This document shows positions 21,598 through 29,999 of a stretch of DNA of 64,000 nt, in pieces. Position numbers and translations under genes: made by a program. Below the pieces are notes generated by a model, which saw nothing but the letters and a program-made list of their open reading frames with translations, was not told where the DNA came from and ran no database searches. Position 1 is the stretch's first letter. The number at the start of each line of letters is the position of its first letter. The DNA comes from Diphasiastrum complanatum (taxonomy: Eukaryota > Streptophyta > Lycopodiopsida > Lycopodiales > Lycopodiaceae), in NCBI GenBank assembly GCA_029204225.1, contig CM055107.1, positions 15,308,900 through 15,372,899 on the forward strand, written 5' to 3'.

Positions 21598-21629
21598 GGG
21601 CCCTTTTTGGACTCAAAAAGGGCCTCTTC
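21598..21629 (+). repeat. Left terminal inverted repeat (32 bp)
   Basis: Starts GGGCCCTTTTTGG and ends CTCTTC. It is the exact reverse complement of 29,968-29,999. Counting flanking CATTA, the match extends to 37 bp (21,593-21,629 with 29,968-30,004). Within itself GGCCCTTTTTG pairs with CAAAAAGGGCC around a GACT loop. Past the repeat, a weaker similarity to the right end continues (CTAAT.ATAATTA, TAGTG.TAAT). Confidence 0.95.
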
Positions 21630-21934
21630 ACTAATTATAATTAGTGTTAATGATGACACATGTCCCAATAAAATATTGACAACTGAGAGAGAATGGTCCA
21701 TATGACATGGCAAATTCAATGGTGCAGATTAAATCAAGTGTGGAACCACAAAGTACACCTCTAACATTAACCCCACATTAACCCTAGATAAAGCAATAAC
21801 TATGCCTACAAGTTAACATCAACTAGCATGTCTATCTACTAGCAGCCTTAGCCTAGTCCTTATTTCAAATTTTGAATGTTCACAAGCTTGTATCTCTCAT
21901 CTCTCTCTCATTTTGTAGTCTCTCTCTAAACGAC

Positions 21935-22056
21935 CTCTCTCTCTCTCTCTCTCTCTCTCTCTCTCTCTCTCTCTCTCTCTCTCTCTCTCTCTCTCTCTCT
22001 CTCTCTCTCTCTCTCTCTCTCTCTCTCTCTCTCTCTCTCTCTCTCTCTCTCTCTCT
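21935..22056. repeat. Perfect (CT)61 microsatellite
   Basis: 122 bases of uninterrupted CT dinucleotide, about 50 bases upstream of the likely start of gene A. In plants, CT/GA tracts are common in 5' leaders and core promoters. Here it lies inside the transposon. Confidence 0.95.
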
Positions 22057-22103
22057 TATTCTTGTGTTAACTATTATGTTTGAATTATTATTATGTCATT
22101 GTA

Positions 22104-23003
22104 ATGGATAATAATGTTGCATTAATGCCTGGTGCAGATGTCTTTCTTTCAAATAGCTTCGACTGGCAAAACGTAAAGTCCTTCACTGGAAAATTCTCCA
22201 CCATACACGCCAAATATGGAGAACTAATATATGGTGGGTTGGCATCCTATGCCCTGATCAAAATGGGCATCTTCTTTTACGATCACATGTACGAAGTTCC
22301 AAAAAAACTTTCGCCAAGGCAAATTAGCACCAATTTCTGAGCCTGCGGTCAATTCTCACGAGTGGCCATATGTTGACCAATTGACTATTGAATTAACGAA
22401 GAGGCAACTTCTCAAAGAGATTACTGGTAATATGAAGCCAACATTCGGATCCACGATGTGGGCATGGAAAGCAACAGAATCATCACTGTTGGATAACATA
22501 TTTGTCGCATGGGATTCAAAGGAAATCGAGCATAAAGGAGATTTAATAAGGTGTAAGCTCTCTTGTGAAACAATGACCATAAGGTATCATATTTCACGTC
22601 AAACATGCTTCTTAAGTTTCATCTACAGGCGATATAAGTTTGGTCATGGCCGATGGGACCCTCTGGACGCGGAGACGAATCAGCAAGAAGTGGAGATATC
22701 CATACATTTGCCACATGATGAAATACAAGAAATTCATATAAATAAGGAGTGCAGCCTAGAAGATCTTCGACATATGCTTGGATTGACTTTTGTTGATGTG
22801 CTAGTAGATTTTGTCTTCACTCATAATGGACAAAATGTGAGTCCCTAATTTCCATCAGATTCCTGAATTTTAAATAGTAATGTTAAATAAATATAGGATT
22901 ATTAACTTTGTGTCTGGTTTTGCAGATACGGAGACGAGCCAAAAAAGATCATGAATGTGTTTCATTTTTACAAACAGAGACATTAGGAGTCCAATGGGAA
23001 TAA
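22104..23003 (+). pseudogene. Transposon gene A, unknown protein, one intron, one frameshift
   Basis: Start chosen at ATG 22104 (MDNNVALMPGADVF). The frame runs to about 22,300, where an A7 tract (after GAAGTTCC) shifts it by one base. From there a long frame continues to 22,836. A GT-AG intron of 89 bp (22,837-22,925) joins codon to codon, and a short last exon ends at TAA 23,001-23,003. The spliced protein is about 270 residues. No family recognised. The last 100 residues (EVEISIHLPHDE, LEDLRHMLGLTFVDVL) alternate beta-like strands with a helix and could be a ubiquitin-like fold, which is inference only. The basic RRRAKKD near the end could be a nuclear signal. The A7 shift may be a real lesion, an assembly error or recoding. 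Confidence 0.6.
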
Positions 23004-23327
23004 AGGATTTAATCTAATGGAAAATAGAAAACACAATTAGTTGGTTGTGTTTTGACTCTATTCTAATATATTTGGTTACGTTTTGACTTTACTTTTGCGT
23101 TGTCACATTTTATATGCCTGTTACTACATTTGTGGATGTCCAAGGTTGAAACTTGTTAGGGTTTAAATCGTTTAGTGATATGCATTTTAATACTATTACT
23201 GGTTTTCTTCGAAGGTTTCTGCTAACTGGCAATTAGGATTTTTACTCATGAGCCTAGACAAGAACATACTATATTTGGAAAAGAGGCCAATTTTATAGGA
23301 GCACTTACTAAAAATAGAACCCTTCAC

Positions 23328-26771: not shown

Positions 26772-26778
26772 TTATATA
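26772..26778 (-). promoter_or_regulatory. TATA box of gene C
   Basis: Minus-strand TATATAA within CTATATAAGAGTG, 132 bases upstream of the chosen start codon. It mirrors the gene B core promoter. Confidence 0.6.
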
Positions 26779-27025
26779 GAGGGATGTGTTTTCAAAAATA
26801 GATATTATTATAAAATCCAATAAAACAATTTCTATTTATAACAACAATTCAATTCGGCAGTAATATTTATCACAAAGGAGTATTCGAATTACAATTCAAC
26901 ATAAATTGTTTCTATTCCATCTCATCAGTTTCCGTAGTTTCTCTAGCGCTGTTTTCCAAAACATTGGATGTTGGTGTCCTCGGCATCCATCTCTTTCCAA
27001 CTCGGACTCTAGACATCCTCCATTC

Positions 27026-29633
27026 TTAATGCCTTGTTCTAGCATTAGAGGATTGCCATGTTGTCTTTCTGACTGAATTTGAATTGGAGATCATTGAACA
27101 CAACTCTTCAGTTCTTGTGTTTTGAAAGTGTCTGCGGCCCAAAACTCCTCTGTAAAACCATTGGAATATCTCAACCAATGCATTGCTAAGACCCTTTCCT
27201 CCGCCATGCCGTGAATTTTTTAAATACGCAGCCTTTGCACTGTAATGACTCTTTTCCATGCCTTGCGTATTCCAAATAGCTAATGATCCATAGGTTTTCA
27301 TAAACCAAGGTCCATGAGCATAGAAGATGTGTTGTTCATAGAAAATTTGTATTAGCTTAAATCTTTACAAATACATAAATACGAAAGTAAAAAATATGAG
27401 ACACACATACCATATAGTGAGTTATGTGTGTTTCTCCCCATGCATCGATCATCAATTCAGTAAATGTTTTGACTTCTCTTGCGTATCTATCCAAATCTTC
27501 ATCTTTCACAATCTTTTTGTTGATAGTTTGTGACAAGGCATCAAATGCTTTAGCATGTGTACTTGCCATGCGAGGATCGAGCCAATATTTGTTGTGCATT
27601 GACATATTTTCCTCCAGTACTCCCATTCAACACTGCTTTCACGTGCAGTATGATTTGACAATAGGTGTCTCGCTTTCGCACCACCCATTGAAACTTTTGC
27701 TGGAACATCTTGCATTTTTTCACTCATCTCAACGTCTTTGGTAAGGCTCACGTGGCCCCCATGCAATCCCATATCAGATAAAATTATCTCTAGATTTCTA
27801 ATGCTAACATCTGCTCTTGATTTGGGCTGCATGTTCCATGCGTAACAACAATGCAAAAATAATAATTTGTCCAGTATTCGTAATTCACCATGCATTGTGC
27901 AAAAATGGACTCTTTCGAGAGGAATGTTCAACACAGGACTCCAAGCTTTGTCTAGATTGTGCCTATTTGGTGCAAGACATTGGTTGCAATTCAAAATACT
28001 TTTGTTCCGCCCAGATTCAAACATACAATATATACAAAAAAAAATTGCATTTGCACCGAGACCACAACCGTACATGCATTTCAAAGTCTTCAAATCAGCA
28101 GCTAGGTGCCATTCTACAGCAAAGCTTTCTCCTTCAACATTGAGCAATTTGCCTTCATTTTGTGCATGTATTATCTTAGATATACTACATTTTTCAAATA
28201 GCCACTCCAGTACGTCGTGAGACTCCTTAGGAACTTCAAATGCAGCTATCCACCATATGTGATTTTCGGATTGCACGCTAAATTCTTTACAATAACTTCT
28301 GCCAAACTGTTGCAATTCACAATTCATCAAGGTGATTGTGACACATTCAAGTTTACGCCCTTTTACGATTTCTGCTTCGTCCAACTTAATAACAAATATA
28401 ACTTTACCTCCGCAATCTGTAAAACAGAAATTTCATTACAAAAACATATTAGTTGAAGAAAAGCATACAATTGAAAATCAAAATCCACAATAAATGTTCT
28501 TACCATTTGTTCTAACTTCGTAATGTCGGATCATCATCGCTTGGACCTTTTCCAGATCTAAGAATATATTATTGCCTTGATGATAGTGAAAACATGTCGG
28601 AGGTCCTTTCTTCTTATTGGTTATTGTAAAAGAATCCTCAATATGTTGAAACTCTCTTAATTCAGAGAGCAAAATCGAATTGCATTCTCATTTGGCAGAT
28701 TCAACAAGTTTATAAGTAGGTATTATTTGATGGAATTTTAACCCATTTTTGTCAGAGCGTTTCATATACTTCTTCAAAGCTCTATACCCCTTGCGGCTCA
28801 CACCTCCTTGGTCACATGCGTACACCATCTCTTTAACATTTGGATTTGTCTTGAACTTGTCGACTAGCTTTTTGCAATTCTCAAGCGAATTGAATCACTT
28901 GTTTCATCTTCCACAATCTTAATCAAATCTTTACCCTTCAAAAAATGTTTCATATATTTTCTGGCAATGAAATCTTTTCCAACCGTCTTTTTCAAGAACT
29001 CTTTTGTGTCCCTCATACGTCTTTTACTGGCACCACCACTTGGTGCCAAAGCTTCTAGTTTGTGTCTCTTAGTGTTTTCATTTTCTACTTGCTGATCCAT
29101 CGAGACTCTACGCTTTCGTTAAAAGCCATATATTGTCCTCTGAAATATACTGATTGAAGATTGCAATTCTTCAATTTTTGCGACAGAACTGGCAAGCTCT
29201 ATTTTCAAACCATTTATCTCCTGCTCCAATTTCATATTTATTCCATGCAATGACTTTAAATTGTCATTCATACTCAATATATGAATGTTTGCCGTATTTG
29301 ACAATGTCTCAGCTTGGATTCTTCGAGAATCCATTGCTTGACAATAGCCAAGTAGTCCATTCCGACCATCCCCAACGAACCTTAACAAACGATGTACATC
29401 AGAAAATTTAGGAGGAGCATCTACCAGTGGATTATGAGGGTATAAATCACCTTTACCCATAGGTCAATATGTTTTTTTCCTTCTAATCTCCAACAATGCA
29501 TGTCATACGGATTTAAGTTAACACCCCATGCAGCTTTGGTGGTTGCATGATCCTTCTCTAACTTCATATGTAAGTGATACTTGGTTGTCATCTTGAAAAT
29601 GTCGAATTTCCCAAAAGAATCCATGTAGAACAT
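27026..29633 (-). pseudogene. Transposon gene D: transposase-like protein, multi-exon, decayed
   Basis: Exons on the minus strand: an uncertain N-terminal part (29,633-28,505), then 28,416-27,411, then 27,355-27,026. Introns are 28,417-28,503 (87 bp, GT-AG) and 27,356-27,410 (55 bp, short but phase-perfect). Order: N-terminal part (MTTKYHLHMKLEKDH), coiled coil (NMKLEQEINGLKIELASS), basic RKRR, a helical block with DQGGVSRKGYRALKKYM, then the core. The core has VIFVIKLDEAEI, ENHIWWIAAFEVP, EWHLAADLKTLKCMYGCGL, paired cysteines (CIYC, CNQC), RVHFCTMHGELR, and a C-terminal WNTQGMEKSHYSAKAAYL. From memory this order matches an unnamed family of transposon-linked proteins in invertebrates; candidate acidic active-site residues are in LDEAE, AADLK and MEKS. 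Lesions: TAA at 29,119, a one-base loss near 28,885, TGA near 28,690, a frameshift near 27,630. Confidence 0.65.
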
Positions 29634-29967
29634 TACAATATACCTTAATCAAATGGTGTCAAAGTTCAATGTGAACTAACCATGATATAAGCTTTATTAG
29701 GCATATACTAGTTTCCATCCCTAGGGTCCTATTGTAGTTAGGACAATGAAAGGTCGTCCTATACTAACACTACTTTAGTTGTAATTTGTAACTTACCTAT
29801 TAGTTGCCTATTATAGTCTATGCAAATAACCTACAATAGTCTATCGAAATGAGACCTACATTTAGGCCTTAACTCGTGCTCACCTTGTATGGTAACCCAA
29901 GGTAAATATGCCACGTAGGATTGATTAGCACTAAATTAATTATGATTAGAAAACTTGTTTAGGCAAG

Positions 29968-29999
29968 GAAGAGGCCCTTTTTGAGTCCAAAAAGGGCCC
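29968..29999 (-). repeat. Right terminal inverted repeat (32 bp)
   Basis: Exact reverse complement of 21,598-21,629, followed by TAATG of copia A. It contains the same internal hairpin. Interior to it, 29,640-29,967 holds no gene. Confidence 0.95.

Follow-up and report, generated by a model that had tools for sequence, protein, structure and literature searches.

A histone H3-like gene and a transposase family of predicted RAG1/Transib fold in an 8.4-kb transposon of Diphasiastrum complanatum

Described systems and the element in the window

Transposons of the hAT superfamily that carry a histone H3-like gene (H3L) have been described in Pyrenophora tritici-repentis (PMC3538342) and in Pseudocercospora fijiensis of the Pseudocercospora/Cercospora group (PMC6710886). 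Here we analyze a transposon with an H3-like gene in a 64,000-nucleotide stretch of the lycopod Diphasiastrum complanatum (GenBank assembly GCA_029204225.1, contig CM055107.1, positions 15,308,900 to 15,372,899, forward strand), which is called the window and numbered from its own first letter. An earlier note made from the sequence alone, the original prediction, had held that a core histone gene is known from no described superfamily, and the fungal elements overturn that claim. The fungal elements and the window element alike are DNA transposons that have inverted ends and carry an H3-like gene besides a transposase, and the element of P. tritici-repentis also has a further open reading frame (ORF) (PMC3538342, PMC6710886). 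The fungal elements, however, have a hAT transposase, and an 8-bp target duplication is stated there for P. fijiensis and C. zeae-maydis, whereas the window element has a transposase from a family with RAG1/Transib fold, no 8-bp duplication and a long insert between H3 tail and H3 fold. Transposase type and form of the histone gene are what sets it apart from the fungal elements. In a thin search of open papers, none of the papers listed names a histone gene in a plant transposon.

For Transib and the RAG-like (RAGL) elements, 5-bp target duplications are described, and the RAG-like ends are CAC, in PMC7204232 and PMC4411706, the latter also placing Chapaev in the Transib superfamily. The window element departs from both rules as worded in PMC7204232, since its ends read CATTAGG (TAGGGC or GGGCCC at shorter limits) instead of 5'-CAC, and the flanks of its 37-bp ends, GTACA and AGAGT, give no 5-bp duplication. 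Its likeness to Transib, RAGL and RAG1 lies in the predicted fold of a member of its transposase family, in the DDE catalytic residues and in the spacing of C-x2-C and H-x4-H, and it differs from them by the added histone and acidic genes. The CACTA/CMC elements (En/Spm, Mirage, Chapaev) are large plant elements with several genes, CA..TG ends and a zinc motif in common with Transib. The window element has CA..TG ends only if CATTA belongs to it, and it differs in that the Pfam CACTA transposase domain is absent among the families listed. We could not match it to any described superfamily.

It is clear that this is a real transposon, in which the transposase group and the histone cargo are both unusual. 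The reading we favor, and to which we give an even chance, is that of a now-broken large cut-and-paste transposon of a eukaryotic group, with a transposase family of RAG1/Transib fold and an H3-like gene that is an old resident part and not a recent pick-up from the host.

Ends, target site and host of the unit

The original prediction described a single mobile unit of about 8.4 kb with the H3-like gene inside, perfect 32-bp terminal inverted repeats and a cleanly split host retrotransposon. Unit and split are borne out, and the repeats match perfectly over a greater length. In a repeat analysis of the window the left arm at 21593-21629 (plus strand), itself nearly palindromic (GGCCCTTTTTG..CAAAAAGGGCC), and the right arm at 29968-30004 (minus strand) are complementary at 37 of 37 bases, and together with the DNA they enclose make up 8,412 bp. 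The 5 bp beyond the 32-bp ends are CATTA/TAATG and lie outside GGGCCC. Within the window a 27-bp core of the repeats is present in the two arms and nowhere else, and it appears in none of 100 shuffles; likeness between the subterminal parts past the 37-bp ends is not significant, the same level being reached by 16 of 300 shuffles.

The unit is enclosed by two Ty1/copia long terminal repeats (LTRs) at 18263-18551 and 31966-32259 (both minus strand) that are 89% identical (261 of 294 positions, with 5 gap positions). Pfam places copia gag (E 1.8e-14) on one side of the insertion and gag_pre-integrs (E 3.7e-17) and RVT_2 (E 2.6e-54) on the opposite side, while the RNase H piece at 18617-19321 is without a Pfam match. 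The insertion severs the Pol_BBD domain: the gag and protease-side pieces to the right (30005-30743, minus strand) match positions 1-21 of the 81-position profile (E 2.6e-5, just below the cut-off), and the polyprotein piece to the left (20932-21594, minus strand) matches positions 26-80 (E 3.8e-9) and continues into gag_pre-integrs. If the arms were as old as the LTRs, the probability that all 37 bases still agree would be about 0.012, so that the insertion appears to be more recent than the copia element. The latter would have been split when this copy moved in, with a transposase supplied by this copy before its decay or by a sibling.

The limits were read by eye against the copia frame. 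This frame is restored without a duplication if CATTA/TAATG is part of the element (..FFSTL-VPFVGCKKS..), and likewise if only TA/TA is (..STL-ICVPFVG..); a 3-bp duplication in which one base has since changed keeps it as well (..STL-PFVGC..), the 3-bp flanks ACA and AGA being the same at two of three positions. A TA duplication outside GGGCCC breaks the frame, and the 8-bp flanks AAGGTACA and AGAGTTGA are not a duplication. Between the matched parts of the Pol_BBD profile lie four positions, for which the three frame-keeping readings leave 6, 8 and 5 residues, and this mildly favors the 37-bp limits. Our tentative preference is for 37-bp ends and either no target duplication or one of 3 bp. 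The copia piece at 20932-21594 has no relative in viral contigs, hence no homologue across the junction to show an empty site. Ends of the Harbinger type were considered and dropped, because the TTA and TAA that flank GGGCCC repeat in inverted instead of direct orientation.

Histone and transposase genes and the readings of the element

The H3-like ORF at 24037-24642 (plus strand) has a poly-proline stretch followed by a complete H3 histone fold without any indel (about 24337-24639), which upholds the predicted H3-fold protein with a Pfam Histone match at E 3.4e-29 and a match of H3 chains in PDB to residues 72-200 at E 2.3e-28. The first Met of this 201-residue ORF is residue 97, so that it cannot start alone ahead of the fold and needs the ORF upstream at 23462. 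This 5' part (23462-23989, same strand) starts with MAWTKQMARDP and goes on with a stretch rich in RS, Q, acidic residues and P. Its start agrees at 7 of 9 positions with MARTKQTAR, the canonical H3 start (per-position chance 1.6e-8), and when all six frames of the window are scanned, no other of the 127,948 positions reaches 6 matches. From these readings we conclude that tail and fold probably form one gene, with the long RS-, Q-, acidic- and proline-rich stretch as an insert between them. The tail keeps T3-K4-Q5 and has Asp and Pro in place of K9 and S10.

Aligned with canonical H3, the fold agrees at 51 of 100 positions and has no indel and no stop. Canonical H3 hardly differs between plants and animals, and given this divergence the H3-like gene looks old and long under selection. 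The placing of the changes was compared with 12 other divergent H3s, namely 11 of the 13 matches of the H3 search (P0054 and P0056, near copies of P0055, being left out, and P0045 beforehand) and Arabidopsis CENH3. Over the 97 positions compared, mean conservation in these proteins is 0.85 at the 51 kept positions and 0.60 at the 46 changed ones, a difference reached by none of 100,000 permutations; 20 of the 27 invariant positions are kept, against 3 of the 18 variable ones. R83, C110, H113, K115, R116 and D123 are kept, and R49, R63 and R72 are altered. That the fold is free of stops is weaker evidence than this placing.

The transposase gene at 27029-29624 (minus strand) was recognized from its ORFs, its relatives and the predicted fold of its family. 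The predicted transposase-like protein is supported by 45 relatives at E <= 0.01 in a protein database search, and its gene is broken in this copy. Read by eye, it is interrupted by stops at about 29119 and 28685, shifts frame at about 29450, 28890 and 27580, and has introns at about 28421-28506 and 27335-27410. Among the relatives the only named holder is a fern, and none was found in viral contigs, phages or prokaryote genome contigs. The predicted structure of a family member has a RAG1-like fold together with the DDE residues and the C2/H2 zinc site of Transib and RAGL. In the alignment these are the first catalytic Asp (KLDE, 28373-28393), the second (ADLKTLK, 28076-28102), the C-x2-C motif (CIYC, 28025-28042), the H-x4-H motif (HIFYAH, 27311-27334) and the catalytic Glu (GMEKSH, 27245-27268), all on the minus strand. 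Their spacing in the family is like that in RAG1.

Pfam gave no RAG1 or Transib family and no hAT domain for the window pieces or among the families listed for 14 family members. The CACTA transposase was absent from the window pieces and from the 25 of 45 families listed for these members, those not listed having E >= 0.14. The 50 fold matches listed include no CACTA structure, so that this comparison of folds does not tell CMC and RAG/Transib apart. Kelch and PHD domains were not found by Pfam in 10 + 2 ORF pieces of the element, where pieces of broken genes or a diverged propeller could escape.

Transposase and histone occur together a second time in the gene model P0045 from the fern Adiantum nelumboides (500 residues), in which a transposase piece of the same family is joined to a histone fold (E 6e-9). 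P0044 from the same species has 57 identical transposase residues in common with P0045, which means at least two copies in this fern. Past the histone fold, residues 231-500 of P0045 have a weak match to Ulp1 (C48) protease (E 0.067, below the cut-off), suggesting a possible further, Ulp1-like gene in the fern elements.

Because of the divergence under constraint and the second locus in Adiantum, we favor the view that the histone works for the element. The H3-like protein, for which the original prediction inferred a role in the element's own chromatin, would pair with host H4 and enter nucleosomes or a transposition complex on the DNA of the element. H3K9 methylation silences plant transposons, and nucleosomes with Asp and Pro for K9 and S10 might resist it. 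If the histone does serve the element, the transposon alters the very protein that bears its silencing marks, which is directly testable. A bolder version, about which we are doubtful, is that a separate RAG1-fold transposon superfamily exists in ferns, with its own K4-keeping, K9-lacking H3 as a working part. This histone would take the place of host H3 on the DNA of the element, break the silencing loop of H3K9 methylation and perhaps guide the transposition complex or shield it. With a fern as its only named holder here, the transposase family would extend the RAG1 fold past animals and fungi, the groups given for Transib in the consulted part of PMC7204232, and so bears on the origin of the fold of the antibody-gene recombinase.

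Several observations weigh against the old-resident reading. The transposase has two in-frame stops and three frame changes, a single copy with both ends is seen (in the window), and its flanks show no clean target duplication. Whole-chain TM-scores to RAG1 are low (0.29-0.31 by query, 0.40-0.47 by target) and come from a family-member model with pLDDT 71 and pTM 0.59; a family profile run against PDB sequences did not find RAG1, its one match at E <= 1 being ribosome recycling factor (0.6), and the link to RAG1 thus rests on fold and residue spacing. The zinc-site position H761 holds His in 2 of the 37 rows with a letter, and the catalytic Glu is found in 3 of 3 rows, most rows stopping at the presumed intron. 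On the histone side, two in-frame TAG and a frame change separate tail from fold unless spliced out, and the loss of K9 is known from one copy. P0045 is an automatic gene model with a gene order unlike that of the window element; its histone piece is short, 34% identical to ours over 41 residues, and not among the 13 matches of the H3 search at E <= 1e-8. No database contig was shown to carry both genes (45 transposase against 13 H3 matches, the H3 search being limited by length and E).

The H3 gene could instead be a host copy gained by transduplication, as in the fungal hAT elements, and be a passenger without a role in transposition. The precedent in two fungal groups (PMC3538342, PMC6710886), the broken state of the gene and the presence of acidic and unknown genes without known function speak for this, and yet only half of the fold is identical to canonical H3 while indels and stops are absent and the changes are placed as selection would allow. 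The chance that a neutral copy acquires no stop falls from 0.15 at 49 random changes to 0.04 at 80, which is not tiny and leaves the placing of the changes as the stronger point; in a distant fern member of the family, too, a histone fold lies next to a transposase piece. We consider a passenger unlikely, though it is the strongest of the rivals. The same Adiantum link argues against a composite, in which the H3-like gene and perhaps others came by nested insertion or local duplication and the ends bound a unit and not a co-evolved gene set. GC content is 0.54-0.55 in the H3 gene (0.47 in the fold alone) and 0.37 in the transposase part, as a composite would explain, and one copy is seen; against it, none of the repeats listed (20 of 34 direct families, 25 of 84 inverted pairs) encloses the H3 gene so as to mark a nested unit, and an internal palindrome (24888-25056) lies behind the gene. 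A composite origin is accordingly improbable in our view. Slightly more improbable still is that the protein is a centromere-type, CENH3-like histone by which the element is directed to insert, or be retained, in centromeric chromatin. LIP and NRxTA[DE]A are common to the window protein and P0047 (Cryptomeria japonica, 178 residues, named histone H3), and to Arabidopsis CENH3, but loop 1 has canonical length in the alignment without the CENH3-type extension, the identity to canonical H3 (51 of 100) exceeds that to Arabidopsis CENH3 (42 of 92), and an H3 tree does not resolve the place of the protein.

Remaining genes and neighboring sequences

The acidic protein foreseen in the original prediction is indeed intact, with 459 residues encoded at 25175-26646 (minus strand) by exon 1 (26646-25699) and exon 2 (25606-25175) around a GC-AG intron of 92 bases (25698-25607), as read from ORFs and splicing. 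It has 77 D+E against 43 K+R and no relative at E <= 1 in the protein database search, and a single-sequence structure model of exon 1 was uninformative (pLDDT 33). The fourth protein, predicted to be of unknown kind, corresponds by eye to a plus-strand gene (gene 1) at 22104-23003 with exons at about 22104-22836 and 22926-23003 and a GT..AG intron; it is without a Pfam match above the cut-off and is interrupted by a single frame change at about 22300. A long (CT)n tract at 21934-22057 lies ahead of gene 1. When the acidic, gene-1 and H3-tail pieces were compared by Blast with the 58 proteins retrieved, no match had an E value under 0.69. Between the convergent H3-like and acidic genes, repeat analysis finds a 169-nt imperfect palindrome of 70-bp units (24888-25056) with a predicted RNA fold of -120 kcal/mol, which may be a transcript end or a source of small RNA.

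Elsewhere in the window, ORF reading gives a second Ty1/copia-type polyprotein (39309-41993, plus strand) and Ty3/gypsy-type gag-pol pieces (56659-59748, plus strand). Two copies of a sequence of about 1.05 kb, 92% identical, lie in inverted orientation at 41996-43050 and 49792-50844, and a cluster of long proline- and glutamine-rich ORFs on the minus strand (2385-7929) is perhaps another large element.

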